From Paludibacter sp. (GTDB taxonomy: Bacteria; Bacteroidota; Bacteroidia; Bacteroidales; Paludibacteraceae), in the NCBI GenBank assembly GCA_029973975.1, contig JARKQF010000260.1:1-50139 (forward strand): a stretch of 50,139 bases of DNA, given 5' to 3'. The notes beneath the pieces were generated by a model. It made no database searches. It was given only the letters and a program-made list of their open reading frames with translations, and was not told the origin of the DNA. Within the stretch, counting starts at the first letter, position 1, and the number at the start of each line of letters is the position of its first letter. The position numbers were made by a program, and so were the translations under genes. Of this stretch, positions 293 through 47,197 are shown piece by piece.

Positions 293-2005
293 TTATAGGA
301 TAATTTTCTTTATTTCAGATTTCACGCGAACCAAATAAACCCCTCTGGGTAAATCTACAATCAATTTATCCTGAACCATTCCCTGATAAACCACGATTCC
401 ACCTGCTGAATAAATTACTACATTTTCCGGCTGATAAACAGTTAAGTTTAACTTACCACCCTCGGCATAAGCATGAAACGTGCTTTTTACAGATGCAACA
501 TCCGCGGAAATGATATCGTACTCATACACCGGAGTCGACATCGTTTCAAACCTGTTGACATAAGCAACTGCAAAACCATGTGAACTCAGTAAATTATTAT
601 AATTGCTCAAATCGAAGGTGTTGTTTTTCGTCCAGTGTCTGGTGAGCATATAGTCAAAACCAGTTATTGAACCAGGGGTAAATTCACGGGGTACAGCAAA
701 AATAACGAAACTTCCATCAGTCTGAGAAGCACTCCACGAAAGGATATTTCCATTTCGCTGCACATTGGCAACAGGTAAAGCCTGGTTTGTTTTCCAACTG
801 ATAACAGGAGGCAATATTTTGGTTTGAAAGAAATTTGTTTTCAGATATGGGCCATAATTCTCTGCCACAAAATAAGAAGTATTATAAAAAACAGAACCCG
901 GAGAGGTGGTGTTAACAGCCCTGTTTTTATCAATCTGCAAACCTATTTCCGACTGATCCCATCCCCTGTAAAGTGCCTGACTCGAATAAAAATGCCGGCC
1001 GTATTTATTGGCAATACTCTGCCACCAGGGCGCCAACACATTGTAATCCTGACCTGACGATCCGGTCGGATAAGTTGCCCAATAAAGCTGAGGAGAAATA
1101 TAGTCGATCGTACCCTGACTTAACCAGGCCAGGCCATCGCAATAAATAGAATTGTAATTATCGGCACCGGTGATGCCCGTAGGCAATGTAACTCCGTACT
1201 TATTAGCTGCAGTCTTACTTATGCTCCAGATACCACGTGGAGAAATGCCAAAACGAATGCCCGGATTAACCCGCTGAATGGTATCATACACTTCCTTCAC
1301 GGTTTTATTTACATTATCCCGGCGCCAGTCTCCAATAGTCAAACCCTGCGGATTATAATTCTGATAAGTAGCAGCATCCTGTTCGCCGGCAGTGATAGCT
1401 GAAATGTAAAAATAATCATCCCACACGATGCCATCGATATCAGGATAATTAACAATAACTTCTTTGGTCACCTGTGCGATATGCGTACGAACTGCGGGAA
1501 TACCCGGATTCAGGATCTCTTCATTTGTATCAAAGCTCAGCAACCATTCAGGATGTTGCACCTGCATATAATCGCTTGAAGCATGGCTGGTAGATGAATT
1601 GGTGTACCGGTAAGGATTCATCCAACCATGCAGTTCCATGCCACGTTTATGCGCCTCTTCAATAGCAAAAGCCAGCGGATCATAGCCCGGATTTCTTCCA
1701 CGTGTACCAGTCAGATACGACGACCAGGTAGTAAGTTGTGTCGGATAAAGCGCATCGGCCATCGGACGAATCTGCAAAAATACCGCGTTCATATTGGCCG
1801 CCTGCATTTTATCCAGTATACTGATTAATTCGGCTTTTTGTGCATTGATTTGGGTTTGACTTCCCGTTGTGGTGATTTTGGTTTTAGGCCAATCGATGTT
1901 GGATACTGTAGCTACCCAGTTTGCCCGAAATTCACGTTGCGGTTCGGTAGCAGTCGAAAACAGAAATGTAACTAAAAGCGTGAGAAGAAGCATTGATTTT
2001 GACAT
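293..2005 (-). CDS. Secreted GHL10 family (DUF187, DigH/YddW-like) glycosidase with T9SS-like tail
   Basis: The 570-residue product has a signal peptide (about 1-19) followed by a GHL10/DUF187 TIM-barrel catalytic domain. Visible family signatures are REFRANWVATV (24-34), FLQIRPMADALYP (76-88), ELHGWMNPYR (124-133), LNPGIP (165-170) and the acidic DGIVWDDYFY (191-200), which carries the likely catalytic Asp residues. The E. coli relative DigH (YddW) cleaves peptidoglycan glycan strands stripped of stem peptides; assigning that substrate here is by family and by the amidases nearby. The last 40 residues (VVIYSAGGIVVYQG ... GVYLVRVKSEIKKIIL) look like a T9SS C-terminal sorting domain, so surface display or release is expected. 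It sits downstream of the propeller gene at 2128 and shares its fold with the enzyme at 30738. M5 is an equally possible start. Confidence 0.88.
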   Translation of the reverse strand: MSKSMLLLTLLVTFLFSTATEPQREFRANWVATVSNIDWPKTKITTTGSQTQINAQKAELISILDKMQAANMNAVFLQIRPMADALYPTQLTTWSSYLTGTRGRNPGYDPLAFAIEEAHKRGMELHGWMNPYRYTNSSTSHASSDYMQVQHPEWLLSFDTNEEILNPGIPAVRTHIAQVTKEVIVNYPDIDGIVWDDYFYISAITAGEQDAATYQNYNPQGLTIGDWRRDNVNKTVKEVYDTIQRVNPGIRFGISPRGIWSISKTAANKYGVTLPTGITGADNYNSIYCDGLAWLSQGTIDYISPQLYWATYPTGSSGQDYNVLAPWWQSIANKYGRHFYSSQALYRGWDQSEIGLQIDKNRAVNTTSPGSVFYNTSYFVAENYGPYLKTNFFQTKILPPVISWKTNQALPVANVQRNGNILSWSASQTDGSFVIFAVPREFTPGSITGFDYMLTRHWTKNNTFDLSNYNNLLSSHGFAVAYVNRFETMSTPVYEYDIISADVASVKSTFHAYAEGGKLNLTVYQPENVVIYSAGGIVVYQGMVQDKLIVDLPRGVYLVRVKSEIKKIIL

Positions 2006-2035
2006 GAGGGATGTGGAATAAATAGTGTGGAAAGA

Positions 2036-2127: not shown

Positions 2128-3894
2128 TTACTTCACAAATTTAACAGATTCTCCATTAACCCGAAGAACATAAATACCATTCATCAAATCATGCGAATAG
2201 CTGTCTGAAGATACGGCCTTATCGATTAAAACGCCATTCAGATTATACAACTCAATGGTTGCCTGCCCGTTAAATCTAGCTTCAATTCCATTCGAAGTAC
2301 GAACAATTTGAACATCAACCTTTTTGCCATTCATTCCTGTAGAAGGTATCGGCGTTCCAAATCCGGCAATTTCATCTGTCATGGATGGATAAATTGCCCA
2401 TCTGTTACTTCCGCGATTCTCCCAATTCTCAGGTGAACCCATATCCGTTGTATAATATTTATACCCTGAATTTGAATATATTACGTCATCAATTCCATCA
2501 CCTATGGTAACCGTAAAATCAGTTGTTCCATTTTTTGCTAATGCAGTTGCAGTAGCCCATCCATCCCAACCACCTTTAACATACAAATCAGATGGAATAC
2601 CACCGGTGGTTATATCCGCTGTCAGAACAAATTTAGAAACAGCCTTCCAGTTTGCAACCACATCGCTGGCATTGTAAGAGCGATTGATTCCATCAGCAGG
2701 TTTCACCGGTGTACCATCAGCAGCATTATACTCAGTAGAACCAAGACCAGCAGACTCTTGATAATCCCAGTTTCCTTTTCCGTTCAAGTATTTGTATTCA
2801 ATACCATCCTCACAGGCGAAAGTACCTGTAAATTCATTTGGATTTGCAGTAGTTGTAAGTTCATAAGGATCTGCATTATCCCAACTTTTGAATGTAAAGG
2901 AACCTGCAACATAGACTTTTTCAGTTCCCTGAGGTACGGTAACTGTGAATGTTTTGGCAGGAACTTCCATTTCATAAACAGCTAAACCGTTGTTTGGCGC
3001 CCATATGAATATTGTTGCTTTATTTCCCGAAACAACAGCATGTACAGAAATATGCAAGGTCGTGTTTGCATTTGCACCAATCTGGGTAGTTTCACCAATT
3101 AGTACAGGCGTAGCCGGATTTTGTATATCATATACTTTTACTACCCCATATTGTGTTGAACCTAATGCAACATAAGGTCTGCCTAAAACTTTAAAATATG
3201 CACCACCACCTACTCCAAAGGTTGCACTACCTATACTAGTAGAGGTACTATTAGCTGGCGTTTCTAAATCTAATTCGACTATCTTTGGTATAGCACTTGC
3301 CCCGGTAACAAGCATATGAGTTTCATCAATCCAATTGATATCAGCACCAGTGTAAAAATTTCCTCTTTTCCCACTAATTACAACTGGAGCTGCAGCATTA
3401 ACAAATGCTCCAGATTGAATTTTCCATATCAAGATATTGTCAGCAGTATTAATTGAAGCTCCAGCTAAATACCCTTGAGTTGCAAAGTCACCATAAGCAG
3501 AAACAAAATCAAGTCTACCTGTTCCGGATAAAGCCGTATTTGCATAAGTTTTTGTTTCTCCTACAATTAGGGTTCCCTGAATGTTATTCGTCATACCATA
3601 AGCTCCGGAAGTAACATACAAATTACCAGCACTATTTGCAGTAACACTAAAACCTGTAAAATTAGCATCAGCTATTGCTGTTCCTTCAGAACCATCAACA
3701 GCACTAATAACTTGTACTTTTTTATTCCCTTTATCAATCACATAAAGATTTCCATCATAATAAGTTGCACTTCTTGAGTTAGTTCCTGTATTCCACGTGT
3801 AAGTCGTTTTGGAATACTTTGGAGTCAATGTAACTCCCGCGTATAAACCATTGAAGCAAAATGCCACAAGTAAAAAAGTAATTAATTTTTTCAT
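2128..3894 (-). CDS. Secreted beta-propeller protein with two CBM-like modules and T9SS-like tail
   Basis: The product has 588 residues and a signal peptide MKKLITFLLVAFCFNGLYA. Residues about 25-310 form a propeller-like region (repeated 'GNLYV', 'VQVISAVDG', 'VKVYDIQNP'), resembling the DUF4623-type region of the protein at 33427. Residues about 315-385 (VTVPQGTEKVYVAGSFTFKS ... EYKYLNGKGNWDYQE) and 420-510 (DLYVKGGWDGW ... YKYYT) resemble starch-binding/CBM20-CBM48-type beta-sandwiches. The tail IELYNLNGVLIDKA ... GIYVLRVNGESVKFVK resembles a T9SS sorting domain and is close to that of the neighbour at 4017. No catalytic motif is visible. A surface glycan-binding role is inferred. It lies between hairpin-containing gaps of 122 bases on each side. 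Confidence 0.75.
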   Translation of the reverse strand: MKKLITFLLVAFCFNGLYAGVTLTPKYSKTTYTWNTGTNSRSATYYDGNLYVIDKGNKKVQVISAVDGSEGTAIADANFTGFSVTANSAGNLYVTSGAYGMTNNIQGTLIVGETKTYANTALSGTGRLDFVSAYGDFATQGYLAGASINTADNILIWKIQSGAFVNAAAPVVISGKRGNFYTGADINWIDETHMLVTGASAIPKIVELDLETPANSTSTSIGSATFGVGGGAYFKVLGRPYVALGSTQYGVVKVYDIQNPATPVLIGETTQIGANANTTLHISVHAVVSGNKATIFIWAPNNGLAVYEMEVPAKTFTVTVPQGTEKVYVAGSFTFKSWDNADPYELTTTANPNEFTGTFACEDGIEYKYLNGKGNWDYQESAGLGSTEYNAADGTPVKPADGINRSYNASDVVANWKAVSKFVLTADITTGGIPSDLYVKGGWDGWATATALAKNGTTDFTVTIGDGIDDVIYSNSGYKYYTTDMGSPENWENRGSNRWAIYPSMTDEIAGFGTPIPSTGMNGKKVDVQIVRTSNGIEARFNGQATIELYNLNGVLIDKAVSSDSYSHDLMNGIYVLRVNGESVKFVK

Positions 3895-4016: not shown

Positions 4017-5801
4017 TTATCTTACAAATTTATGTGCCTGTCCGTTTACACGAATGATAAACATACCCTTACCCAATTCGCGACTATAAACACCATCCGT
4101 ACGGGTTTTGTCAATCAGGGTACCATTGATTGTGTAGAGTTCGATGTTGGAGGGTTCATCCAGTTCCACTTCAATACCGTAGTAAGTCTGCTTTAAACGG
4201 AATGATTCAATTTTTTCTCCAACTGAACTGATAATAAATGGCAATGTTGATTCATGCGCTCCGGCATAAGTAAATGAGGTATTACGTACCTTTCCGAAAA
4301 TATCGGTTGCCACAGCTGCCAAGGAGGGAACCTTCAGGTTTACGTCCTGAACTGAAGCTCCGGCTATACTTAAATCACCGGCAGCAGCATCAGCAAAGTT
4401 AACACTAACAAATTTAGAATCAGCATCCTTACCGCTTCCCGTCTGATAAGCCCCCAAGGTTTGATAAGATCCATTTATATAAGCATTTGTGTTAGCTGCA
4501 TTAAAATAGAAAATATTGTTATCAGAAACACCTCCATTTGTTCCTCTGATAAAGAAATTAGGAACATCTGTTTCATTACTGATAAAAATATTATTACTTA
4601 TTTCGGGAGTTCCGGCAGCAATATTTATAGCACAATAAGACGGATCAGCAGAGGTTGGACTAACCGGGTTAGAAACCGGCTTATACGTTAAAGATTTCAT
4701 ATAAAATGTGTTGTGTCTGATAAAAGTTGTAGAACCACATCTAATTGCCTGTAAAGTACAGTAATTATTTGTTGCTGCAGAACCATAACTTTTATCTATT
4801 CCCGAAAAGAAATTATTATCAACATACCACGTTCCACCTCCACTTGCAATTACAGCTTTCATTCCATAATCTCCGGTGGAGGAATTATATGTCTTTAATT
4901 CAACAAATTTATTTGAACTTATATTTATGTCACCTGCGAGTCCGGAATTACCCATAATGGCTGAGCTTAAAGTACTGTTATTAGTCTGAACAACATGAAA
5001 TTCGTTTCCACTAATTTCAATTCCATTTACATAATTTAAAAACACACCTCTTGTACGTGCATTGATAACATTATTCTTTATAACAACACCTGAAGCAGCT
5101 ACACCCGGAGCAGCATTGGCAAAAGTTCCAATACCTTGCGATGCACTATTTCTCACACATGTAATATGATTGTTTTCAATAAGCACATCAGATGGCATCT
5201 TGTTAGTACCGTATGCTGTATTACACCTCAAATAGACACCATAATTACTTGAACCAGACGAAGCACCTTCATGATAAATAATGGTATTTTTAATCTGAAT
5301 ATTAGAGCAATCATTAATAAGCAGAATCGGGCCATTTCCTCCATGATGGGTGGCAGAAGTTGCAATTTTTAATCTTCTTGTATTTCCCCCTTCAGCAAAA
5401 CCATCAATAACAATGTTTTTTGCCTGCGCAAGATCAGCCCATGCAATGCTGTTTTTTATCCCAATACACAATGCTCCTGAAGGACCAGCATTATCGGTTG
5501 CCTGACTAAATGTAATTGTTCTGTCAACATCAGAATCAGGGCGAATTGAAATTGTATAATTTGAAGAATTAATTAACCCGACATTAGTAGACTGGTTTAT
5601 ATCACCATTGATATACAACGTAATATCACCTGCAATACCATTGGTATTGATGGCCTCAAAAGCATCAGTAAGAGAAGTATAAAATACACTTGAATTTCCA
5701 GGATCATTTGGCACATAATAATTTCCGGCAGGAAGAGGCGTTTGGGCAAAAGCAACATTCAACCCCAAAATTAAAACTGATAACAATGTAATTTTTTTCA
5801 T
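4017..5801 (-). CDS. Secreted right-handed beta-helix protein with T9SS-like tail
   Basis: The 594-residue product has a signal peptide MKKITLLSVLILGLNVAFA. Residues about 100-450 contain many Asn-rich turns typical of right-handed parallel beta-helices (IQIKNTIIYHEG, VLIENNHITCV, VVIKNNVINA, IEISGNEFHVV, INISSNKFVEL, WYVDNNFFSGI, PEISNNIFISN). Such helices occur in pectate-lyase-like enzymes, glycan-binding proteins and adhesins. I see no assured lyase or hydrolase active site. The last 45 residues (IELYTINGTLIDKTRT ... GMFIIRVNGQAHKFVR) match the tail of the neighbour at 2128 and look like a T9SS signal. It is the first gene of the minus-strand block A and lies behind a good promoter candidate. 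Function unknown; surface polysaccharide binding or cleavage is a guess. Confidence 0.75.
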   Translation of the reverse strand: MKKITLLSVLILGLNVAFAQTPLPAGNYYVPNDPGNSSVFYTSLTDAFEAINTNGIAGDITLYINGDINQSTNVGLINSSNYTISIRPDSDVDRTITFSQATDNAGPSGALCIGIKNSIAWADLAQAKNIVIDGFAEGGNTRRLKIATSATHHGGNGPILLINDCSNIQIKNTIIYHEGASSGSSNYGVYLRCNTAYGTNKMPSDVLIENNHITCVRNSASQGIGTFANAAPGVAASGVVIKNNVINARTRGVFLNYVNGIEISGNEFHVVQTNNSTLSSAIMGNSGLAGDINISSNKFVELKTYNSSTGDYGMKAVIASGGGTWYVDNNFFSGIDKSYGSAATNNYCTLQAIRCGSTTFIRHNTFYMKSLTYKPVSNPVSPTSADPSYCAINIAAGTPEISNNIFISNETDVPNFFIRGTNGGVSDNNIFYFNAANTNAYINGSYQTLGAYQTGSGKDADSKFVSVNFADAAAGDLSIAGASVQDVNLKVPSLAAVATDIFGKVRNTSFTYAGAHESTLPFIISSVGEKIESFRLKQTYYGIEVELDEPSNIELYTINGTLIDKTRTDGVYSRELGKGMFIIRVNGQAHKFVR

Positions 5802-6243: not shown

Positions 6244-6912
6244 GTGAAAACAATCATAATGACACTAAGCTGGATTTGCCTGACAGCATTTGCACAGGAA
6301 ATTAAAACTGAGAAAACTTACGAAACGGAAACTTACAAAAACAGAATAAAAACATTCCGCGAAGAAGGATTAGAAAAACACGGCATTATATTTCTTGGCA
6401 ACAGCCTCACGCAGGGTGGCGACTGGGACACCTGGTTTCCGGCACACAAACCCGCAAACCGTGGAATTTCAGGAGATAACACGGAAGGTGTATTAGCCAG
6501 ACTGGATGAAATAACCAACGCAAAACCAGTCAAACTTTTTCTGATGATTGGCATCAACGACATTTCACAGAATTACAATAATGATTATCTTTGCAAAAAT
6601 TTTGAAAAAATTATCCGGAAAATATTAACCGAATCGCCCAAAACCAGCATTTACATCCAGAGCATTCTGCCTGTAAACAATGATTTCGGACGTTACAAAA
6701 AACTGATTAACAAGGAAAAACAAATCGAGAACCTGAACATCAGACTAAAAAAGCTTTGTAAAAAAGAAAATATCAGATATGTAAATCTTTATCCTCTGTT
6801 TTTACAAAACAAACGCAAACTGAACCCTGCCTACACGACCGATGGATTACATCTCAACGAAAAAGGATATCAGGTATGGATCGGCGGAATCAGGAGCTTG
6901 ATAGAGGAATAA
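6244..6912 (+). CDS. Secreted SGNH/GDSL-family hydrolase (esterase)
   Basis: The 222-residue product starts at a GTG and has a short signal peptide (KTIIMTLSWICLTAFA). All SGNH blocks are visible: GNSLTQ (52-57, nucleophile Ser54), NRGISGD (72-78, oxyanion Gly), GIND (103-106, Asn105) and DGLH (200-203, Asp200/His203). The size fits the PAF-acetylhydrolase/sialate-O-acetylesterase-like branch. These enzymes hydrolyse carboxyl esters such as O-acetyl groups on sugars. With peptidoglycan enzymes all around, removal of O-acetyl groups from MurNAc is an attractive but unproven role. It is the first gene of block B and ends 29 bases before the kinase start. ATG at 6259 is an alternative start but would shorten the signal peptide. 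Confidence 0.85.
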   Translation: MKTIIMTLSWICLTAFAQEIKTEKTYETETYKNRIKTFREEGLEKHGIIFLGNSLTQGGDWDTWFPAHKPANRGISGDNTEGVLARLDEITNAKPVKLFLMIGINDISQNYNNDYLCKNFEKIIRKILTESPKTSIYIQSILPVNNDFGRYKKLINKEKQIENLNIRLKKLCKKENIRYVNLYPLFLQNKRKLNPAYTTDGLHLNEKGYQVWIGGIRSLIEE

Positions 6913-6941
6913 AGACATACAACAGCATAAAAGACAAAACA

Positions 6942-7784
6942 ATGAGACTAATAGCAGAAAGCGGATCAACCAAAGCCGAATGGTGCCTGCTCGAAGGAAA
7001 CCACGTAGTTGAACACGCATTTACGGAAGGTATTAATCCTTTTTTTCAAACAAGAAGGGAAATCAGCCGTTGTGTCAGACTACAACTGCCTGAAAAATTC
7101 TTTACCCGGAAACTGGATGAAATTTTCTTCTATGGCGCCGGCTGCACTTCGGAGGAAAAGAAAAACATCGTTAAAGCATCACTGACTTCTCAGTTCAGAG
7201 TAAAAACAAAGGTTTACAGCGATTTGCTGGCAGCCGGGAGATCTCTTTTCGGCAAAGAAAAAGGTATTGCCTGCATATTGGGAACAGGCTCAAATACCGG
7301 CTTGTACGACGGAAATGAAATTATCCAAAATGTAAAATCATTGGGATATGTGCTGGGCGACGAAGGCAGTAGCTCGGTGCTGGGAAAAATGTTTCTGAGT
7401 GATTTGCTTAAAAATCTGGCGCCAACCGACCTGACTAATAAGTTTTATGACTTGTACCACCTTACATCCGACGATGTACTGGACATGATCTACAACCAAC
7501 CATTCCCAAACAGAACGCTGTCGAAGTTTTCCGGCTTCCTGCTTGATTTCAAAAACGAAGAATACGTTTACGATCTGATCTCCAAAAATTTCAGAAGATT
7601 TTTCAGAAGAAACATCCTGCAATACGACTATCAGAAATACCCTATCGGTTTTATCGGCACAGTAGCCGACAACTATCAGGATATCTTACTGGATGTTGCC
7701 AAAGAATTTGATGTAAAAATCGCCAAAATTACCGAATCGCCCATGAAAGGCCTGGTAGATTATTACTATCCGAAACTCCTGTAA
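6942..7784 (+). CDS. BadF/BadG-family amino-sugar kinase (GlcNAc or MurNAc kinase type), copy 1
   Basis: The 280-residue protein belongs to the ASKHA fold BadF/BadG/NAGK family. Visible motifs are phosphate-1 ESGSTKAEW (6-14), the likely base Asp94 in YSD, phosphate-2 ILGTGSN (112-118), GDEGS (139-143) and the adenosine-loop segment GFIGTVADN near the C-terminus. Eukaryotic NAGK and Clostridium MurK, which phosphorylate GlcNAc and MurNAc/GlcNAc, are in this family; the exact sugar cannot be read from sequence. The frame is open upstream from 6876, but that would overlap the SGNH gene; ATG 6942 starts right before the phosphate-1 motif, as in the paralogue at 12836. The paralogue has DGGST where this one has ESGST. 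It is followed by a strong terminator. Confidence 0.87.
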   Translation: MRLIAESGSTKAEWCLLEGNHVVEHAFTEGINPFFQTRREISRCVRLQLPEKFFTRKLDEIFFYGAGCTSEEKKNIVKASLTSQFRVKTKVYSDLLAAGRSLFGKEKGIACILGTGSNTGLYDGNEIIQNVKSLGYVLGDEGSSSVLGKMFLSDLLKNLAPTDLTNKFYDLYHLTSDDVLDMIYNQPFPNRTLSKFSGFLLDFKNEEYVYDLISKNFRRFFRRNILQYDYQKYPIGFIGTVADNYQDILLDVAKEFDVKIAKITESPMKGLVDYYYPKLL

Positions 7785-7809
7785 CCGAATACACATGCAG
7801 CTTATTGAG

Positions 7810-7835
7810 CCCCGGACATCCATCCGGGGTTTTTT
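7810..7835 (+). terminator. Intrinsic terminator after the kinase gene
   Basis: CCCCGGA (7810-7816), a 6-base loop, TCCGGGG (7823-7829) and six T residues. It begins 25 bases after the kinase stop. A long upstream frame of the next gene would run through this hairpin, which argues against that start. Confidence 0.88.
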
Positions 7836-7878
7836 ATTTTATGTTTTATATACATTTATTAATTTATTTTATGCGTTG

Positions 7879-7914
7879 TTTGCATTAATAAATAATTTTA
7901 TATGTCTATTTTTG
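7879..7914 (+). promoter_or_regulatory. Weak promoter candidate for the TolB-like/amidase pair
   Basis: TATTTTTG (7907-7914) matches the -7 motif, with TTTG at 7879-7882 upstream. The 24-base spacer is longer than usual. A new promoter is expected here because a terminator lies just upstream. Confidence 0.3.
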
Positions 7915-7974
7915 GGTTCTGAATTTATCATTTTCTACAATCAACTTTATCTTTATTCTAACACAAATCATGGT

Positions 7975-8898: not shown

Positions 8899-8902
8899 AA
8901 CC

Positions 8903-38633: not shown

Positions 38634-38653
38634 ATACTTTAATTCCTGCAATC

Positions 38654-41152
38654 GTGAAAAAAACAACCCTCTTCATTGGGCTGATGTTGTTTCAGTCTGT
38701 TTTTGTAAGCACATCAGCCATCAACATCAACGGTGTTGAGAAAAAAATAGATACACTGGAACATCGTCAGGTTGGTCCGGGTGTTTTCTACACCCGCTTT
38801 CAGTTACCGGATTATCCTTTATCAGCCTATATCCTGCAGGTTGATCTCAACAATCCCCATAATTTTATTGAAACATTTCAAGCCGGCAATCAGGTAGGCA
38901 AAACGGAAGCCATGACTACGGCCTATAACCGTTTGAGCAGCACGACTCATTCGACCATCGCGGGGGTAAACGGGAACTTCTGGATTGTATCCGGACAAGG
39001 GCAACCAACCGAACTACTGGGCGTTCCACACAGCGGAAGCATGCTCGGAGGTGAAATGATAACAGACCCCAACAGCTGGAACCGGGGACATGGCAGCATT
39101 GGTTTTGCCATGATTGATGCCAATAAGAAAGTCTGGGTCGACGACATTGCTTTTACAGGCAAAGTAAATATCCCGGGCAAAGGCGGATATACCATTTCTC
39201 AAATCAACCGGATGCGGGGTGACAACCAGCTTGTTCTATTCAATAATTATCTGGGCGATGGTAAAACCACGCGAACAGACAACAACGGCATTGAGATCTT
39301 TATCAAACCTGCTGACAACGAACAATGGAAAACCAATGGGGATGTCACCTGCGTGGTAACGAGAATCATTGCCAATAAGGGAGGTAATTTACTCGAAAAA
39401 GGGGAATCGGTTTTATCCGGCAGCGGTACGGCTCAAACCTTTCTTTCCACGTTAAATCCGGGCGATACGGTTTTGGTCAACATGTCTATCAAAACACTGA
39501 CTGACAATCAAACCCCACAGGTAAAAGAAATGATTACCGGCAATGCGCTGGTGATGAAAAATGGTACGCTGACCAACCGGAATACCAATGAGGCATACAA
39601 CTCACAACTTTATCCACGCACGGGAGTCGGGGCTTCGCAGGATGGCAAAGTATTGTACCTGATTGTTATCGACAAAGGAAGTGGTTCCAACGGTGCAAAT
39701 ACCGAAACCATGTGCGGTATTTTGAAAGCTTTCGGCGCTTCCGACGTCACTTCTATGGATGGTGGTGGCTCCGCGCAAATGATGTTGGAGGGAATGATTG
39801 TAAATAAGCCATCAGATGGCAAAGAACGCCCTGTCGCCAATGGCTGGTTCGTGTATCACAATGCGCCCGAAGACAAGAACATCACACAAATCGCTTTCGA
39901 AGATCTGAGAACTGAAATGCCTGCACTGGCAAGCTATAAGCCGGTTATACTGGGTTACAATCAATATGGTGTGTTAATCGACAAAAACATCGAAGATTAC
40001 ACTTTGAGTTGTTCTGAAGGGCTGGGACAAATCACGCCTGATGGCGCTTTCATTGCCAATGGTAACGCTACAAGCGGTACTTTAACCGTAAGCTACAACC
40101 AGATATCCATCTCCAAAACCATCCGAATCATTTCCGGAGATATCTTATTCCGTCTGGATTCAATACTCATCGATGAACAACGGTCCTACCCTATTGAAGT
40201 TTTCAGTATTTCCACAAGCGGAAGCCTGACCATCCCTCCTGCCCTGTTAAACTGGAGCATCGCGGATGAATCTATTTGTAAAATCGATAATGGCATTCTG
40301 AAAGGATTGAAAAACGGTAAAACAAAAATTTACGGCGCCATCGGGAATATAAAAGATAGTCTGACTGTATACGTTGAAATACCCGAACAGGTAAAAATGA
40401 AATACGATGATTTCAGTCAGGCCGGTAGTCCTTGGAAATTAGCCGCATCTTCACAACTTTCGGCAACACTTTCTTCATCCGGTATACCGCTGGACTGGAG
40501 TAGCGGACTGGCCGTCGATTTCACATACAAATCAGGGCGTGCGCCTTTTATTAAACTGACGAACCAGAAACCTCTGTACGCTTTACCCGACAGTATCAGC
40601 ATCATGATCAAAACCGGCGATATACTCATCGACAGAATGCTTATCAGTCTGCGTGCCAACAACAGCAAGCAAGCTGTTTCGAAAGAATTCAAGGATTTTG
40701 TCAGTGGTGGTGGCGATACCGAGATCAAATATGCCATCAGCGATTTTTTTGACACTAACGACATAGCAGTATTTCCCGTCTGGCTCGACAATTTCAACTT
40801 CTACCTGCAGGCCATGACGGAAAATCAGGCCTATCAGCTTGGATTCAAAGAAATTAACCTGGCTTATAACGGAAGAGAGTTTTCGGGAATCCACATACCA
40901 TCGGACCAATCAGGTTTCAACATCTATCCGAATCCTGTGCAGGAAGAAATTCTTATCAAGACTGAAAACCAAACAGGTAAATTCGATATTGACTTATTTA
41001 ATTTATCCGGTCAGAAAGTCAGAACGCTACAAACAGAGATAATGACCGGAAATACAATTGCTATCCCGGTTCAAAAGTTGAAACCAGGTTATTATTTGTT
41101 GACAATAAAGCAAAATCAAAAAAAGAGTACATTCAAAATTATTAAGAATTAA
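38654..41152 (+). CDS. Secreted NAGPA-type phosphodiester glycosidase with T9SS sorting domain, copy 2
   Basis: The 832-residue product is a tandem paralogue of the preceding protein with the same order: signal peptide, NAGPA domain, Ig-like region, jelly-roll-like module, T9SS tail. Catalytic-domain landmarks are IAGVNGNFW, YPRTGVGAS, VTSMDGGGSAQMM and DGKERPVANGWFV. The tail is NIYPNPVQEEILIK ... GYYLLTIKQNQKKSTFKIIKN. A GTG at 38654 gives the clean signal peptide VKKTTLFIGLMLFQSVFVST; the longest frame, from ATG 38585, would start in the terminator. Sequence divergence between the two copies (Phe/Tyr versus Phe/Trp in the NGD/N motif) suggests different substrate preference. The GH9-deacetylase gene follows after 54 bases. 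Confidence 0.9.
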   Translation: MKKTTLFIGLMLFQSVFVSTSAININGVEKKIDTLEHRQVGPGVFYTRFQLPDYPLSAYILQVDLNNPHNFIETFQAGNQVGKTEAMTTAYNRLSSTTHSTIAGVNGNFWIVSGQGQPTELLGVPHSGSMLGGEMITDPNSWNRGHGSIGFAMIDANKKVWVDDIAFTGKVNIPGKGGYTISQINRMRGDNQLVLFNNYLGDGKTTRTDNNGIEIFIKPADNEQWKTNGDVTCVVTRIIANKGGNLLEKGESVLSGSGTAQTFLSTLNPGDTVLVNMSIKTLTDNQTPQVKEMITGNALVMKNGTLTNRNTNEAYNSQLYPRTGVGASQDGKVLYLIVIDKGSGSNGANTETMCGILKAFGASDVTSMDGGGSAQMMLEGMIVNKPSDGKERPVANGWFVYHNAPEDKNITQIAFEDLRTEMPALASYKPVILGYNQYGVLIDKNIEDYTLSCSEGLGQITPDGAFIANGNATSGTLTVSYNQISISKTIRIISGDILFRLDSILIDEQRSYPIEVFSISTSGSLTIPPALLNWSIADESICKIDNGILKGLKNGKTKIYGAIGNIKDSLTVYVEIPEQVKMKYDDFSQAGSPWKLAASSQLSATLSSSGIPLDWSSGLAVDFTYKSGRAPFIKLTNQKPLYALPDSISIMIKTGDILIDRMLISLRANNSKQAVSKEFKDFVSGGGDTEIKYAISDFFDTNDIAVFPVWLDNFNFYLQAMTENQAYQLGFKEINLAYNGREFSGIHIPSDQSGFNIYPNPVQEEILIKTENQTGKFDIDLFNLSGQKVRTLQTEIMTGNTIAIPVQKLKPGYYLLTIKQNQKKSTFKIIKN

Positions 41153-41206: not shown

Positions 41207-43696
41207 ATGGTGATAAAAAAAACATATTTGCTGATTATCGTTTTGCTCTGTCTATCGGTGAAACTATTCAGTGCAGAAGCATGGATACGCATTAACCAAC
41301 TGGGCTATCTGCCCCAATCGGTAAAACGCGCGGTATTTCTGGCTAAAGAACCTGCCGATGTCAGTTTTTTTGCATTGCACCACGCCCTGACGGACGAAAT
41401 TGTTTTTCAAAGCGAAAACCCGGCAGCAAAAGGTAAATTTCATACTTTTTGCTCCACTTATGTACTCGATTTTTCAGCATACGACAAACCCGGCGTATAT
41501 TATCTGAAAGCTGGCAATGCCATTTCACCTCCGGTTATTATCAATAGAAATGTGTACGACGGCACTGCCGACTATGCGCTCAATTACATGCGTCAGCAAC
41601 GGTGCGGATACAATCCTTCGCTCGACATGACCTGTCACCAGCACGATGGTTACGAAGTGTATGGAGACGACCCGCAAAAACACAAATTTGTGGATGTGCG
41701 GGGTGGCTGGCATGACGCTTCCGATTACCTGCAATATGGAACAACTTCTTCCAATGCTGTTTTTCAAATGCTTTTTGCATATCAGCAAAATCCGAATGCC
41801 TTCGACGATCAGTTTGAGGCAGACGGTAAAGCCGGTGCAAACGGAGTTCCTGACATACTCGATGAAGCCAAATGGGGACTCGACTGGCTGCTGAAAATGT
41901 ATCCAGAAAAAGAAATCTTGTATCATCAGATTGCCGACGATCGCGACCATGCTTCGTTCAGGTTGCCAGCTGAAGACAAAGTGGATTATGGCTGGGGACC
42001 CGGCACTGGCCGCCCCGTTTATCGTGCGACAGGCAAGCCGCAGGGTCTATTTCTGAATAAAAACCGTTCGACAGGCATAGCCTCCATAGCCGGAAAATAT
42101 GCGGCTGCTTTCGCTATGGGAAGTGATTTGCTGAAACCATATTACCCCGAATATGTTACCACATTACAGCAAAAGGCCGAAGATGTTTTTGCTTATGGCG
42201 TTGCCAATCCGGGGGTATGTCAGACAGCCCCGGGCAAGTCACCCTATTTTTATGAAGAGGACAATTGGACTGACGACATGCAACTCGCAGCTTCAGTGCT
42301 ATATCATACAACAAATAACAACCGCTATTTGCAGGAAGCGGCACGCTACGGACGCATGGAACCGGTTACACCCTGGATGTGCTCAGATACAGCCCGCCAT
42401 TACCAATGGTATCCTTTCGTGAATGCTGGCCACTACTTGTTAAGCACAGTCGGGCATCCCCAAATTAAAAAGGAGTTTACCGGAAATATGCTGCTTGGTC
42501 TGGAAAGTATGTACAGACGTGCCCAAAGCAATCCTTTCCTGGTCGGCGTACCTTTTATCTGGTGCTCCAACAACCTTGTGGTAGCCATGGCTACCCAATG
42601 CCGGTTATACCGTGAAACCACCGGTGATAATCGTTACCTCGAAATGGAAAGCGCCCTTGTCGACTGGCTGTTTGGCTGTAATCCATGGGGGACAAGCATG
42701 ATTGTCGGCCTACCGGCTAAAGGAGATTATCCGGCGGATCCTCACTCGGCGCTGTGGCATAACCATCGGATCCAAACCTGGGGAGGATTGGTCGATGGTC
42801 CGGTTTACGGTAGCATTTTTAATCGTTTGCTCGGAGTGCACCTGACGAAAGAAGATGTATATGCATCGTTTCAAACCGACTGGGCTGTTTACCACGACGA
42901 TTATGCCGATTATTCAACCAATGAACCGACGATGGACGGTACAGCCTCGCTGACTTACATTCTATCAGCCAGACAGAAAGAAGGTGCAAGTAGTCCTGAT
43001 AAACATACTTACGTACAGGGAGGAATCATCCGTACCAATCCTGAAAAGAAGAACATTTCGCTGATTTTTTCCGGACATGAATATGCTGATGGGTATGAAA
43101 CCATTCTTTCAACTCTGACGAAACAGAGGATATCCGCCTCGTTTTTCTTTACAGGCGATTTTTATCGGAATCCGGATCATAAGTCCTTGATTCAACAATT
43201 GAAAGAAAAAGGACATTACCTTGGCGCCCATTCCGATCAGCATCTGCTTTACTGTGCCTGGGAGAAACGCGACTCTCTGTTGGTTGACAAAGCTACCCTA
43301 TTGCAGGATTTGAAAGCGAATTATGCGGAAATGAGTAAATTCGGCATTATGCCTGCGGATGCGCCCTGCTATCTGCCTCCTTTCGAATGGTACAACGACA
43401 GCATCAGTTCCTGGTGCAAAGAGGCCGGCATTCAGATCGTTAATTTTACACCCGGCACTTATTCCAATGCCGATTACACCATTCCCGACATGAAGAACTA
43501 TCTTTCATCAAAAGATATTTATAAACGTATCCTGGCAAAAGAAAAGAAGGAAAATCTGAATGGTAATATCCTGTTGTTCCACATAGGAACATCAGCCCAA
43601 CGAAAAGACAAGTTTTATCCCCATCTCGATAAACTGATAAAAGAACTGAAAAAAAGAAACTATACATTCACAAACTTAAATGGATTAATAAATTAA
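41207..43696 (+). CDS. GH9 glycosidase fused to a polysaccharide deacetylase (NodB-like) domain
   Basis: The 829-residue protein has a signal peptide (1-23), a CelD-type Ig-like domain (about 26-112; IRINQLGYLPQSVKRAVF), a GH9 barrel (about 118-590) and a NodB-type deacetylase domain (about 615-829). GH9 landmarks are DVRGGWHDASDY (163-174; Asp170/Asp173), GLDWLLKMYP and YSTNEPTMDGTASLTY (569-584; acid Glu573). The deacetylase part has SFFFTGDFY and the metal motif GAHSDQH (673-679; His675, His679), but the usual TFDD motif is FSGHEYADG (621-629). GH9 includes cellulases and exo-beta-glucosaminidases; fusion to a deacetylase and the setting favour a GlcNAc-containing substrate: deacetylate, then release glucosamine. 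No T9SS tail is evident, so the periplasm is likely. Confidence 0.9.
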   Translation: MVIKKTYLLIIVLLCLSVKLFSAEAWIRINQLGYLPQSVKRAVFLAKEPADVSFFALHHALTDEIVFQSENPAAKGKFHTFCSTYVLDFSAYDKPGVYYLKAGNAISPPVIINRNVYDGTADYALNYMRQQRCGYNPSLDMTCHQHDGYEVYGDDPQKHKFVDVRGGWHDASDYLQYGTTSSNAVFQMLFAYQQNPNAFDDQFEADGKAGANGVPDILDEAKWGLDWLLKMYPEKEILYHQIADDRDHASFRLPAEDKVDYGWGPGTGRPVYRATGKPQGLFLNKNRSTGIASIAGKYAAAFAMGSDLLKPYYPEYVTTLQQKAEDVFAYGVANPGVCQTAPGKSPYFYEEDNWTDDMQLAASVLYHTTNNNRYLQEAARYGRMEPVTPWMCSDTARHYQWYPFVNAGHYLLSTVGHPQIKKEFTGNMLLGLESMYRRAQSNPFLVGVPFIWCSNNLVVAMATQCRLYRETTGDNRYLEMESALVDWLFGCNPWGTSMIVGLPAKGDYPADPHSALWHNHRIQTWGGLVDGPVYGSIFNRLLGVHLTKEDVYASFQTDWAVYHDDYADYSTNEPTMDGTASLTYILSARQKEGASSPDKHTYVQGGIIRTNPEKKNISLIFSGHEYADGYETILSTLTKQRISASFFFTGDFYRNPDHKSLIQQLKEKGHYLGAHSDQHLLYCAWEKRDSLLVDKATLLQDLKANYAEMSKFGIMPADAPCYLPPFEWYNDSISSWCKEAGIQIVNFTPGTYSNADYTIPDMKNYLSSKDIYKRILAKEKKENLNGNILLFHIGTSAQRKDKFYPHLDKLIKELKKRNYTFTNLNGLIN

Positions 43697-43754
43697 GAAT
43701 TATGTTACTCAGGTAACTAATGTGACAAAAATTAAACAATTAAATAATCATGTT

Positions 43755-44651
43755 ATGAAAAAACTATTAAGTATCGGAATCGTACTGTTGAGCATCGCAA
43801 CCTTGTCGGCTCAAACAATTACAGTAGAGAAATCGTATCGTCTCATGGATCAGCAGGGTTTTCATCCCCAGTTCAACACAACCGGAAGTATGCTGGCTTT
43901 CACAACCGAATCTTACACAGGCCTGGATGTTTATAACTTCTCCAACAATGCGGTTGTAAAGGTATCAGAAGATCCGGGTGCCGGTTTTCAGCCGGTATTC
44001 AGTAAAAGCAGTGACAAAGTTTTCTTCAAAAACATCCTGTATGAAAACAGACTGCGTAAAGAAGGCATTAAAAGCTATGAGTTTAATAACAATAAAAAAA
44101 CAACTATGTTGGAACCCCGCCGCGTTATCAAACAGCCACAGGCATTTGAGAATGGCATTCTGGTTTATGCTGATGCCAGATTGCTTAAAGCTACATTTGG
44201 CAAGACGAAAACTCCGGTAACCGATTATGTGTGGAGTGATGGCAACAACCTGAATATCTACCGCGACAACAAGATTCAAAGACTGAACCCGGTTGGTGAT
44301 GCCAACGGTTACATCTGGGCTTCTCTGTCTCCCAACGGAAAGATGATTCTATTCACGGCAGCCGGTACAGGAACTTTTGTGAGTGATCTGAACGGGAAAA
44401 TCATTGCGAGGCTGGGATATCTGAACGCACCGGTTTGGTATAACGACAATATGGTCGTTGGTATGCAGGATAAAGACAATGGTGAATATGTAACCGAATC
44501 GAAAATCCTGATGAAAAGCATCGATGGAAAAGTTGAAAAGGTACTGAGTACACCCAACCAGATTGCCATGTACCCGACAGCTGCTTCCGCTGCAAAAAAA
44601 GTAGCGTATAATACGGTGAAGGGAGAGATTTATGTTGTGGAACTGAAATAA
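43755..44651 (+). CDS. Secreted TolB-like beta-propeller protein, copy 2
   Basis: The 298-residue protein is a clear homologue of the one at 7975. It has signal peptide MKKLLSIGIVLLSIATLSA and propeller strands FHPQFNTTGSMLAFTTES, FQPVFSKSSDKVFFKN, WASLSPNGKMILFTAAG and YPTAASAAKKVAYNTVKGEIYVVEL. Shared features with copy 1 include GAPVWYNDNMVVGMQDKDNG/RAPKWMGNNWVIGMEDYDNG. It too is followed by an Amidase_3 gene (at 44768, after a 116-base gap filled by repeats). No catalytic motif is seen; its constant pairing suggests a chaperone, anchor or inhibitor function for the amidase. ATG 43755 gives the clean signal peptide; the frame is open from 43722. Confidence 0.8.
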   Translation: MKKLLSIGIVLLSIATLSAQTITVEKSYRLMDQQGFHPQFNTTGSMLAFTTESYTGLDVYNFSNNAVVKVSEDPGAGFQPVFSKSSDKVFFKNILYENRLRKEGIKSYEFNNNKKTTMLEPRRVIKQPQAFENGILVYADARLLKATFGKTKTPVTDYVWSDGNNLNIYRDNKIQRLNPVGDANGYIWASLSPNGKMILFTAAGTGTFVSDLNGKIIARLGYLNAPVWYNDNMVVGMQDKDNGEYVTESKILMKSIDGKVEKVLSTPNQIAMYPTAASAAKKVAYNTVKGEIYVVELK

Positions 44652-44748: not shown

Positions 44749-44767
44749 AAAAAACAAATAAAATAAA

Positions 44768-47197
44768 ATGAAAACAACCATTACAAAAATATTAACGTTA
44801 TCCATCTTCGTTTTGATAGCATTTTCCATGCCGGCGCAGGATCTGACCGGAATAAAAATACACATCAATCCGGGTCACGGGGGATGGGACGGTGACGACA
44901 GGGGAATACCAACCCCACTATATCCCAGCGTTGGACCTAATGTTGGTTTCTGGGAATCGCAAAGTAATCTCGATAAAGGCATGCAACTTAAAACCATGCT
45001 TGAGGCTCATGGGGCAACGGTTCAGATGTCACGCACACAGAACCGTACGCAAGACGACTTGCCCTTATCGACTATCGTGCAGATGGCAAACGAATTTCAG
45101 GCTGATTTTATGCTGTCAATTCACAGTAATGCAGGCAATGGTGTGGCAAACTATGTCCTGCAGCTTTTTGCAGGTAAAACAGACGGAGACACGCACAACT
45201 ATCCTACTCCCACACCGAGATCAAATGAAAGCAGAGACATTAGTACTGAAATTGCTAAAAATCAGTATAAAAACCAGTTGACTTACTGGACGGCCAATTA
45301 TAATGTATCCGGTGACAAAACTTTTGCCCGCTTGTTTATGGGTTGGTCGGATGGTTATGGTGTAATGCGCGGCTTAACAGTTCCCGGAACCATTTCCGAA
45401 GGTTCCATGCACGATTACATACCGGAGACTTACCGTCTGATGAATATGGAATACAAATGGCTTGAGTCCTGGAATTTCCTGAAAGCTTTCTGTACTTATT
45501 TTAAGAATGCTGAAATTCCGACTGGAAATATTGCCGGATATGTGAAAGACAGTCGAAATTTGATTCTCGACGGACCTTACAAGAAATACGGTAAGGATGT
45601 ATTGTTACCACTGGATAGCGCAAAACTGACGATTCTGGAAACAAATCAGACTTATATTGTCGACAAAAACAGAAACGGAGTTTACGTTTTTAAAGATTTA
45701 CAACCAGGTACATACACTGTGAAAGCAGAAGCAACAGGCTATTATTCACAAACGAAAGAAATAACCGTAGTAAAAAATGAAATCAACCATTTATTGTTTG
45801 AACTGAATAAAATACGCAACACGCCTCCTCAGGTAATAAGCTATACTCCAAATGTAGCATTAACTGATAGTGTAATCGCTTCTACTGACATCGTTTTAAA
45901 TTTCAATTGGGATATGGACGAAGCAAGCACTCGCGCAGCCTTCTCCATTACTCCTGCTACAGAAGGAACACTTACATTCGAAGATAGTCAGTATCGCCTG
46001 CGTTTTACTCCAACCATGCCGTTGGAAAAATCAACACTTTACACGGTTCGGCTCGATAAATCAGCCAAACATCCGGATAACCTGAGCATGGAAGAAGATT
46101 TCGTTTTTCAGTTTGTAACCCAAAGCAGAAACCGGCTGGGATTGATTGAGGGCTATCCGAAAGATGGAAGCAAAAGTGTATATGCAACCAAACCATTGTT
46201 TATGCTTATTTTCGATAGAACAGTGGACAACAACTCCGCCCGTAATAACATCAATGTACTGGACGGTAACGGAACTTCGCTGAGTAAGATTACCCGTTCA
46301 GTCGTATTCAACAAAGTCGGCGCTCCTTATGGTGACATGTATTTCGAACTGACAGAACCACTGATAGCTGGAAATGAGTACACCCTGAGAATTGGGGGTG
46401 AAGTTATGGACAACACCGGCGTGAAAGTGGTTGAGCCCATCGATATCCGCTTTACCGCATCTGCTGTGGCTGTTACGGACAAAACGATAGTCGATGATTT
46501 TGAAGTAGCAGGAGAGTATACGTATGAGTTAACACAGAGTGAAAATGATACGCTCTCAACCATTGCAAGGAGTACCACACAAAAGCTATTCGGAAGCGCT
46601 GCGTATCGAATCAGAACGACTTTCAAAGATGTGGTAGCTTCTTCTGTATATAAAATAGCCACGCCGACTGCTACTACAGAAACCGGCAAGGTATTCGGGT
46701 TGCATGTATATGGCGATATGTCGGGCAATGAGTTACAATTGCAATTCCGTTCGGTTACTGCTGAAAATGTGGTAGTGTATCTGAAACTCTGCGAACTGGA
46801 TTTCAAAGGATGGGAGTTTGTGGAAGCCGAACTGAACGAAACAGCTAACTTCCAGTTAACCGGAATACGTGTGGTGCGCAAAAACGGACTGCTATCGAAA
46901 TCGACTGATATACATATCGATAATTTGTTACAATATGCAGAACCTATTTCCGGATTGATTTCAAACAAACTGGATCCGGCAATCAGCGTTTATCCAAATC
47001 CGGCAACGGATATTATTCGGGTAAAAACCGATGAAAATGCATTACCTTTGTTACAACTTTATTCGCTGAATGGTGTTCTATTGAAAGTTGCCAATGACAA
47101 GCAAATATCAGTCAGTGAATTTGAAGCCGGCACATACCTCCTGAAAGTAAAAACGTCGAAAGGGATGTTTAGTAAGGTGGTGATGATATGTAAATAG
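44768..47197 (+). CDS. Secreted N-acetylmuramoyl-L-alanine amidase (Amidase_3), copy 2, with T9SS-like tail
   Basis: The 809-residue protein has a signal peptide (about 1-23), then an Amidase_3 domain (about 28-250) with zinc ligands His37 (NPGHGG), Glu63 (FWESQSN) and His119 (SIHSNA) and catalytic Glu211 (ISEGSMH). A carboxypeptidase-regulatory-like module (about 260-355) and Big_5-type Ig domains (about 360-570; PPQVISYTPN, TMPLEKSTLYTVRL, PLIAGNEYTLRIGGEVMDN) follow. Next comes a jelly-roll-like module (IVDDFEVAGEYTY ... IHIDNLLQY) and a T9SS type A tail (AISVYPNPATDIIRVKTDE ... GTYLLKVKTSKGMFSKVVMICK). It should remove stem peptides from peptidoglycan outside the cell, producing the denuded glycans that GHL10-type enzymes cleave. 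Confidence 0.92.
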   Translation: MKTTITKILTLSIFVLIAFSMPAQDLTGIKIHINPGHGGWDGDDRGIPTPLYPSVGPNVGFWESQSNLDKGMQLKTMLEAHGATVQMSRTQNRTQDDLPLSTIVQMANEFQADFMLSIHSNAGNGVANYVLQLFAGKTDGDTHNYPTPTPRSNESRDISTEIAKNQYKNQLTYWTANYNVSGDKTFARLFMGWSDGYGVMRGLTVPGTISEGSMHDYIPETYRLMNMEYKWLESWNFLKAFCTYFKNAEIPTGNIAGYVKDSRNLILDGPYKKYGKDVLLPLDSAKLTILETNQTYIVDKNRNGVYVFKDLQPGTYTVKAEATGYYSQTKEITVVKNEINHLLFELNKIRNTPPQVISYTPNVALTDSVIASTDIVLNFNWDMDEASTRAAFSITPATEGTLTFEDSQYRLRFTPTMPLEKSTLYTVRLDKSAKHPDNLSMEEDFVFQFVTQSRNRLGLIEGYPKDGSKSVYATKPLFMLIFDRTVDNNSARNNINVLDGNGTSLSKITRSVVFNKVGAPYGDMYFELTEPLIAGNEYTLRIGGEVMDNTGVKVVEPIDIRFTASAVAVTDKTIVDDFEVAGEYTYELTQSENDTLSTIARSTTQKLFGSAAYRIRTTFKDVVASSVYKIATPTATTETGKVFGLHVYGDMSGNELQLQFRSVTAENVVVYLKLCELDFKGWEFVEAELNETANFQLTGIRVVRKNGLLSKSTDIHIDNLLQYAEPISGLISNKLDPAISVYPNPATDIIRVKTDENALPLLQLYSLNGVLLKVANDKQISVSEFEAGTYLLKVKTSKGMFSKVVMICK

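Follow-up and report, generated by a model that had tools for sequence, protein, structure and literature searches.

What is a locus for that sets exported cell-wall hydrolases and a SusC/SusD uptake system head to head with genes for the recycling of N-acetylmuramic acid (MurNAc)? We analysed such a locus on contig JARKQF010000260.1 of Paludibacter sp. (assembly GCA_029973975.1); the window, that is, the whole stretch of 50,139 nucleotides, corresponds to contig C134 in full, one of 358 pieces of an assembly with a size of 3.56 Mb and a completeness of 85.7%. A first-pass annotation, made from the letters alone, had proposed a surface-acting polysaccharide utilization locus (PUL) that scavenges peptidoglycan and is joined to MurNAc recycling. 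Two patterns in related genomes support this, the placement of murQ directly upstream of susC and the co-occurrence of the muramidase NamZ with the PUL, and we consider it highly probable that the locus serves the utilization of peptidoglycan by a surface PUL coupled to MurNAc recycling. Every gene that the annotation had listed was recovered at or near the place given to it in searches of Pfam, NCBIfam and PDB sequences; it had passed over a pair of NAGPA proteins, a glycoside hydrolase family 9 (GH9)–deacetylase fusion, a GDSL esterase, a DUF4922 protein, a family-2 glycosyltransferase (GT2), a calcineurin-like protein with a PQQ propeller and a flavin (FAD) and iron–sulphur (Fe-S) dehydrogenase cut by the contig end.

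Two divergent operons

The surface operon (22851-47197) has adjacent SusC and SusD homologues (22851-28005), linked to co-directional GHL10, GH9, NAGPA and amidase genes as in a PUL; two lipoproteins and propellers complete it, and the intergenic gaps from SusC to the amidase AmiB are −23 to 153 bp. It runs divergently from the recycling operon. Functions in the lists below are predicted from sequence, and C-terminal tails of the type IX secretion system (T9SS; type A sorting domain) were scored with TIGR04183 (cut-off 23 bits).

22452..22850, divergent region of 399 bp between the recycling operon and the PUL
22851..26186, + strand, SusC-type TonB-dependent transporter (Plug, CarbopepD_reg_2)
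26230..28005, + strand, SusD-like binding lipoprotein, the PUL marker in our genome surveys (PF12771, E 1e-20; lipobox)
27983..28936, + strand, LP3, candidate surface binding lipoprotein, kept in the PUL (no Pfam match; lipobox by eye)
28995..30704, + strand, PKD-domain lipoprotein, conserved, candidate surface glycan-binding protein (PF18911, E 1e-10; lipobox)
30735..33359, + strand, GHL10b, Cwp19-like, T9SS tail (PF02638, E 1.2e-67; Cwp19 5oq2, E 6e-79; TIGR04183 34.2 bits)
33376..35964, + strand, DUF4623-like beta-propeller, T9SS tail (AlphaFold pLDDT 75; best PDB match 4ftd, TM 0.30/0.55; TIGR04183 26.8 bits)
36118..38577, + strand, NAGPA1, phosphodiester glycosidase with additional modules on the C-terminal side and a T9SS tail (PF09992, E 2e-26; sequence and fold matches to 3ohg and vertebrate NAGPA)
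38585..41152, + strand, NAGPA2, tandem paralogue (PF09992, E 4.5e-25; TIGR04183 45 bits)
41207..43696, + strand, GH9 fused to polysaccharide deacetylase (PF00759, E 3e-72; PF01522, E 4e-9)
43722..44651, + strand, PropB, conserved TolB-like propeller resembling PropA (no Pfam match)
44768..47197, + strand, AmiB, secreted Amidase_3 with immunoglobulin-like (Ig) domains and T9SS tail (PF01520, E 7.6e-14; Por_Secre_tail, E 2e-9)

The recycling operon reads away from it:

20547..22451, − strand, calcineurin-like phosphoesterase with PQQ propeller (PF00149, PF13360)
19060..20517, − strand, GT2, recurrent in recycling operons (PF00535, E 2e-27)
18073..19053, − strand, DUF4922 protein, recurrent in recycling operons (PF16269, E 5e-65)
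16199..18073, − strand, AmpG muropeptide permease (TIGR00901, E 9e-46, 156 bits against a cut-off of 350)
14900..16141, − strand, NamZ exo-beta-N-acetylmuramidase (NamZ_N PF07075, E 2e-85; NamZ_C PF20732; solved homologue 4k05, E 3e-204)
13669..14880, − strand, MurT-type transporter of MurNAc at the inner membrane, a member of the NagX superfamily (E 6e-41 against the NagX model, sub-cut-off; no Pfam match; operon position)
12836..13672, − strand, MurK, MurNAc kinase of the BadF type (8oqw, E 1.6e-99; SPL residues, as reported in the lactyl pocket of MurK)

A scan of the divergent region with a Bacteroidota-type promoter consensus gave one match, at 22605(−) on the recycling-operon side, and none towards susC; no regulator domain was found among the window proteins scanned with Pfam.

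The genes ampG, namZ, murT and murK are contiguous (12836-18073), MurT and AmpG being assigned from sub-cut-off model matches and position. NamZ is probably periplasmic, to judge from its signal-peptide-like N terminus. The protein at 13669-14880, first described as a NagX-like acetyltransferase, is indeed present, but its identity as an acetyltransferase did not hold: since it scores 140.7 bits against a NagX cut-off of 480 and occupies the operon position of MurT in Tannerella forsythia, it is better read as the MurNAc transporter MurT. Both BadF kinases of the first-pass annotation are of the MurNAc-kinase type and pair with the MurK and K1058 of T. forsythia, 12836-13672 being nearer to the T. 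forsythia chains 8oqw/8ow9 and 6876-7784 nearer to 8oqk/8ow7; the former chains appear to be MurK and the latter K1058, judged by residues 133-135 as given in PMC10465942. The adjacent DUF4922 and GT2 genes (18073-20517) recur as a pair in the recycling operons of many relatives, and neither has an obvious role in MurNAc breakdown.

A murQ gene, part of the T. forsythia operon, is absent at the end of the window's recycling operon and sits on another contig of the same assembly, C318 (22251-23003), 5.2 kb from the contig end that adjoins the window's left edge. The junction is bridged by one protein, of which residues 1-91 lie in the window and residues 266-1019 at the right end of C318 (90% and 86% identity, respectively, by tblastn). 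In the sister genome, the sequence beyond that edge encodes a beta-lactamase-family protein, SpoIID, a GH20 hexosaminidase and MurQ (L170:4194-10274), and C318 matches the same proteins, GH20 excepted.

3..275, − strand, first 91 residues of a T9SS-tailed calcineurin-like metallophosphoesterase with a purple-acid-phosphatase N domain (tblastn with the sister protein L169:12996-16094, and Pfam domains of that protein)

Conservation of the PUL and its link to MurNAc catabolism

The closest genome found was G061, a metagenome-assembled Paludibacter sp., whose best segments across the PUL proteins are 81-96% identical. With four proteins of the window as queries, a search of 150 family genomes gave SusD in 25 and NAGPA1 in 25; 23 genomes have both, and in 19 of these the two lie on one contig, at most 12 kb apart. 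The order SusC-SusD-LP3-PKD-GHL10-propeller-NAGPA-PropB-Amidase_3 is conserved in the fetched stretches. We annotated 23 of the 25 SusD genomes (the window itself and G089 were left out), and the enzyme side was covered in 19 of them: the propeller was present in 19, GHL10b and AmiB in 17 each, PropB in 16, and LP3 and the PKD lipoprotein in 15 each, the absences including contig ends, while NAGPA1 is present in 19/19 by construction, the stretches having been picked from NAGPA matches. Homologues of AmiA and GHL10a, which in the window lie to the left of the recycling operon, stand between PropB and AmiB in G094. Beyond the family survey, at least 80 NAGPA loci were found in named genomes, and 19 of the 80 listed combine SusD, GHL10b, NAGPA1 and AmiB matches; these include Bacteroides salyersiae, B. 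nordii and Barnesiella sp. An55, and some are family-survey genomes. The other 61 lack at least one of the four within the stretch, often cut by a contig end, and many of the distant ones have NAGPA alone.

The link to MurNAc lies upstream of susC. Four of the 25 SusD genomes are too short there (G102, G006, G011 and G089, in which the SusD match starts at the contig end); in 15 of the 21 that could be assessed, murQ is found 29-514 bp upstream of susC and in the same direction (partial at contig ends in G075 and G132), and in 12 of those 15 a MurK homologue directly precedes it. In G136, namZ and a MurT homologue stand between susC and murQ, which is 7.1 kb upstream; in G000 and G061, the upstream neighbour is the AmpG-NamZ-MurT-MurK operon, divergent from susC. 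Further upstream in the 15, mostly on the opposite strand, are NagB-PIG-L (11), GT2 (10), DUF4922 (7), SpoIID (6) and AmpG (3), several of these stretches ending early. Elsewhere the two halves come together on a single contig: in the B. salyersiae type strain, the PUL is accompanied by a second MurNAc kinase, AmiA, a second NamZ and then GT2-DUF4922-SpoIID-AmpG-NamZ-dehydrogenase-MurT-MurK-MurQ, and in Barnesiella sp. An55, the PUL and AmpG-NamZ-dehydrogenase-MurT-MurQ lie within 40 kb. B. nordii has both halves on separate contigs.

The co-occurrence search that the first-pass annotation had suggested points the same way. With a cut-off of E 1e-60 in the family, NamZ was found in 24/25 SusD-positive and 37/125 SusD-negative genomes (Fisher p 2.7e-10) and, within the window's own genus, in 5/5 and 0/8 (p 8e-4); in an order-wide sample (n=295, cut-off E 1e-100), the counts were 5/5 and 24/290 (p 6.6e-6), two of the five being already counted in the family, and all these p-values ignore shared ancestry. 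MurNAc is the sugar on which MurK, MurQ and NamZ act, which makes peptidoglycan the most likely substrate of the locus.

Several observations weigh against this reading. The worry about shared descent is lessened, in our view, by the within-genus split and by the three further families in the order sample, but the co-occurrence is one-way, NamZ being present without the PUL in 37 family genomes, and 3 of the 21 assessable genomes (G024, G072 and G101) show no recycling genes upstream of SusC within the 7.9-14.7 kb covered. The PUL itself is not always intact: NAGPA1 matches occur without SusD in G127 and G140, and SusD occurs without NAGPA1 in G020 and G089. The NAGPA and GH9 families are found in other settings, and a second PUL of the same genome, on contig C133, has NAGPA genes and no wall genes among its annotated parts. 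Finally, Cwp19, the Clostridioides difficile relative of the GHL10 proteins, is an autolysin of the self wall (PMC6016235), and GHL10 alone is no proof of foreign targets.

Chitin or a plant glucan, suggested by the GH9 domain, was considered and rejected as the main substrate: the MurNAc genes track the PUL, and among the fetched PUL stretches, only the window's genome and its sister G061 have the GH9-deacetylase inside the PUL. Of 20 further loci with the same fusion that were compared (stretches of 5.7-20 kb), 13 showed no NlpC/P60 protein or epimerase-type enzyme as neighbours, whereas 7, all from genus g33, did. These seven (L027, L028, L030, L031, L032, L033 and L037, with L180 and L181 nearby in two genomes) combine NlpC/P60, a mandelate-racemase/epimerase-type enzyme, an SSF transporter and the GH9-deacetylase in 7/7, NamZ2 and a beta-lactamase-family protein in 6/7, GH20 in 4/7 and GHL10 in 2/7, with SusC or SusD matches in some; the g33 locus may represent a different peptidoglycan-type locus, in which wall scavenging takes a peptide-catabolising form. 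Auxotrophy for MurNAc, known from T. forsythia, was likewise unsupported: MurA, the one enzyme searched for, scores above cut-off in the window's genome and in four of five others tested, the fifth having two partial matches, and since MurA is present, auxotrophy is not needed to explain the locus.

Probable export of the wall hydrolases

Further genes, candidate wall enzymes among them, lie to the left of the recycling operon:

293..2005, − strand, GHL10a, peptidoglycan glycosidase or lytic transglycosylase candidate, weak T9SS tail (PF02638, E 1e-62; TIGR04183 20 bits)
2128..3894, − strand, surface protein, weak CBM-like match and weak T9SS tail (AMPK1_CBM 24.7 bits and TIGR04183 22.4 bits, both below cut-off)
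4017..5801, − strand, beta-helix-like protein by eye, doubtful T9SS tail (no Pfam match; TIGR04183 15.5 bits, below cut-off)
6244..6912, + strand, GDSL/SGNH esterase (PF13472, E 5e-27)
6876..7784, + strand, MurNAc-kinase paralogue of the K1058 type, BadF (no Pfam match; 8oqk, E 4e-109)
7795..8898, + strand, PropA, TolB-like propeller (PD40)
8882..12784, + strand, AmiA, secreted Amidase_3 that continues into a large C-terminal region and ends in a T9SS tail (Amidase_3, E 6.9e-5; Por_Secre_tail, E 1.3e-14)

Nine T9SS-like tails had been noticed at first; six score above the cut-off, and three, those of GHL10a (E 4.9e-4), 2128-3894 (E 9.1e-5) and 4017-5801 (E 0.013), fall below it. The SprA/Sov secretion-pore gene, the one T9SS part searched for, is present in 5/5 genomes tested, the window's own included. 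With six tails above the cut-off and the pore encoded, it is probable that the hydrolases work outside the cell and attack foreign wall; growth at the expense of that wall may follow.

Both pairs of hydrolases in the first-pass annotation are present. For the amidases, AmiB has a clear Amidase_3 match, and AmiA scores 23.4 bits (cut-off 27) yet keeps the catalytic positions: H37, E63, H119 and E211 (AmiB numbering), which we take to be the metal ligands and the catalytic acid, are invariant in 18/18 aligned amidases, the two of the window among them. A gene for a TolB-like propeller stands directly 5' of each amidase gene (7795-8898 and 43722-44651), and the PropB-AmiB order is found in many relatives; the propellers are possible partners of the amidases. 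The two GHL10 proteins, 293-2005(−) and 30735-33359(+), are equally clear. GHL10b matches Cwp19 over ~360 residues, a nearness that partly reflects database coverage, Cwp19 being its sole PDB match, and that is compatible with hydrolysis; E132, D199, D204, D205 and D296 are among the residues invariant in 15 GHL10 proteins (positions not mapped to the catalytic residues of Cwp19). Cwp19 is reported to be a lytic transglycosylase that yields 1,6-anhydroMurNAc peptides among its products, along with reducing ends on peptide-free MurNAc (PMC6016235). The restriction to denuded strands in the original idea therefore need not hold, as products of Cwp19 bear peptides. The window's GHL10 proteins are candidate lytic transglycosylases by resemblance; they share the GHL10 domain with Cwp19 and have T9SS tails (below the cut-off in GHL10a), whereas Cwp19 has cell-wall-binding repeats. 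Anhydromuropeptides from such enzymes would suit AmpG.

The export signals also bear on the best-surviving alternative, that the locus recovers the cell's own turnover fragments while the exported enzymes remodel its own envelope. AmpG-NamZ-MurT-MurK-MurQ is a recycling and scavenging pathway in T. forsythia, and Cwp19 is an autolysin, both of which fit self recycling. The cell's own peptidoglycan is periplasmic, however, yet six proteins have T9SS tails above the cut-off, among them four GHL10, NAGPA or amidase proteins and, besides, the second amidase; the SusD orthologue is found in just 25/150 family genomes, unlike a housekeeping function, and we know of no NAGPA substrate in Gram-negative peptidoglycan. 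On balance, we find self recycling improbable.

NAGPA and a possible role at the anchor of wall polymers

The NAGPA pair has the PF09992 domain, fold and DGGGS signature of phosphodiester glycosidases. NAGPA action on wall linkages is not described in the open-access literature searched, outside which most subscription papers lie. The NAGPA1 model (pLDDT 88) matches 3ohg (BACOVA_00430) and the catalytic domains of vertebrate NAGPA, the mannose-6-phosphate uncovering enzyme, in fold and signature, whereas the window's proteins are bacterial, multi-module and T9SS-tailed and lie within a wall-degrading operon. Vertebrate NAGPA takes N-acetylglucosamine (GlcNAc) off GlcNAc-alpha-1-P-6-mannose. 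Teichoic acids are joined to peptidoglycan MurNAc via GlcNAc-1-phosphate, nuclear magnetic resonance has placed a streptococcal polysaccharide on MurNAc C6 through a GlcN phosphodiester, and wall polysaccharides conceal peptidoglycan (PMC8807736, on PplD). By analogy, the NAGPA linkage chemistry would match the GlcNAc-1-P-6-MurNAc anchor, the type of bond being the same. We tentatively propose, as a possibility that is rather more apt to fail than to hold, that the surface NAGPAs cut the GlcNAc-alpha-1-phosphate-6-MurNAc linkage by which teichoic acids and polymers akin to them are anchored, so that the polymer comes free while MurNAc-6-phosphate stays behind on the strand. This phosphate may then be taken off by the metallophosphoesterase with a T9SS tail encoded at the left edge, and Gram-positive peptidoglycan would be exposed to GHL10 and the amidases. 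To our knowledge, no enzyme is known to cut this anchor, and NAGPA, if the proposal is true, would be the first.

The genomic context is consistent with a wall-directed role. The metallophosphoesterase flanks GHL10a. Two genomes of a single genus (L072, L200) have a NAGPA gene flanked by SpoIID and AmpG, and in a third genome (L123) a NAGPA gene immediately precedes AmpG. In Bacillota proteins, NAGPA has been predicted beside wall-directed domains, as here: it is combined with a TelC-type lipocone, sometimes with NlpC/P60, or fused to calcineurin in ShfP-type proteins, but these come from spore-forming or other bacteria in conflict or sporulation rather than PUL contexts, and the accessible parts of the two sources do not name the wall-anchor bond (PMC12419801, PMC11488536). 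The hosts of phages with a NAGPA domain (45 records: 30 of Bacillus, Staphylococcus or Kurthia, 5 of Erwinia or Escherichia and 10 named 'Bacteriophage' only) were set aside as weak support for a teichoic-acid role, many records being near-identical SPbeta relatives. In these phage records, the matching protein is called a tail fibre or spike where the phage is one of Escherichia, and for Bacillus phages it mostly goes by hypothetical protein or phosphodiester glycosidase; the Staphylococcus records listed have no annotation. NAGPA-like stretches were also seen in 44 viral contigs (L125-L168).

NAGPA and the GH9-deacetylase are not classical peptidoglycan enzymes, and the PUL could conceivably target another phosphorylated or amino-sugar glycan, such as a capsule or a secondary wall polymer, with the wall enzymes as accessories. 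The C133 locus adds to this, as it pairs two NAGPA genes with an alkaline phosphatase and no wall gene among its annotated parts. MurNAc is favoured instead by the presence of MurQ and MurK immediately upstream of SusC and by the co-occurrence of NamZ, and we hold another glycan to be very unlikely as the target. The C133 locus itself (L002, C133:5000-23386), a second SusCD locus with a FecR-type regulator and a beta-helix protein, is likely a PUL for another phosphodiester-linked glycan.

Flanking genes

47346..50138, + strand, FAD/Fe-S 2-hydroxyacid dehydrogenase, cut by the contig end (Pfam)

The dehydrogenase met no NCBIfam cut-off; its closest solved relatives are the lactate dehydrogenase LctD (E 2e-24), followed by a glycolate oxidase and a mitochondrial D-lactate dehydrogenase. 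It adjoins NamZ in 7/11 annotated NamZ loci of the first type, and it stands at the far end of the same locus in the window's genome and in G061; it was not seen in the stretch examined of G033 and G093. D-lactate is a by-product of MurQ, and D-lactate dehydrogenase is for that reason the natural reading: the enzyme probably serves MurQ. On the left flank, homologues of the 4017-5801 protein come after AmiA in L018 and L172, and the GDSL/SGNH esterase is perhaps a MurNAc O-acetylesterase; in B. salyersiae, a fusion of a beta-lactamase-family protein with GDSL follows murQ.

Discussion

Put together, the parts suggest a route from the outside inwards. Amidases, GHL10 glycosidases and NAGPA enzymes would reach the cell surface through the T9SS and there strip foreign sacculi and cut them up; the resulting fragments would be captured by SusD together with the two lipoproteins and imported by SusC. 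In the periplasm, NamZ would release MurNAc, and at the inner membrane, AmpG would carry muropeptides and MurT MurNAc; MurK would then form MurNAc-6-phosphate and MurQ, encoded on C318, convert it to GlcNAc-6-phosphate and D-lactate, which the FAD/Fe-S enzyme would probably oxidise. A weapon, in which secreted amidases and glycosidases would kill living competitors by lysis and feeding would come second, would account for several T9SS-tailed wall hydrolases in one neighbourhood. The hydrolase genes are, however, spaced as in an operon with SusCD, and in relatives with murQ as well, which speaks for feeding, and a weapon seems a most improbable explanation.

Both halves of this putative peptidoglycan utilization locus have known counterparts. 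The T. forsythia operon (Tanf_08345-08385) has ampG, namZ (YbbC), murT and murK in the same order, with two glycosyltransferase-annotated genes where the window has GT2 and DUF4922; it adds a xanthan-lyase-annotated gene, a LytB gene and murQ, whereas in the window the calcineurin-PQQ gene leads, the operon has no LytB and murQ is elsewhere in the locus. T. forsythia lacks MurA and MurB, unlike the window's genome, which has MurA. The AmpG-NamZ-MurT-MurK recycling of T. forsythia has been described, with no SusCD, surface amidase, GHL10 or NAGPA mentioned for the operon in the sources used (PMC10465942, PMC5388701, PMC7670621). Sus-like PULs share the SusC/SusD pair, surface lipoproteins and secreted, co-directional enzymes, but the window's wall enzymes fall outside GH23, GH24, GH25 and GH73. 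In a survey of 13,537 PULs, these four families were under-represented and were suggested to serve wall remodelling over nutrition, although peptidoglycan enzymes occur in several predicted PULs (PMC6499787); whether gut enzymes attack exogenous peptidoglycan is a question that a review on peptidoglycan in the gut does not settle (PMC11382707). The view that a PUL for whole peptidoglycan is hardly described was borne out in part: no dedicated PUL of this make-up has a precedent in the open-access literature searched, but the recycling half is already known from T. forsythia. Being built from other families than those four, the locus could have been overlooked.

The bacterial wall is an abundant and little-considered food in guts and sediments. 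With the PUL and the recycling operon both present in the B. salyersiae type strain, the idea that gut Bacteroidota feed on the walls of their neighbours becomes directly testable. The NAGPA proposal, if true, would provide an enzyme for a linkage found in many Gram-positive walls, and with it both a tool and an insight into how muropeptides are released to the host.

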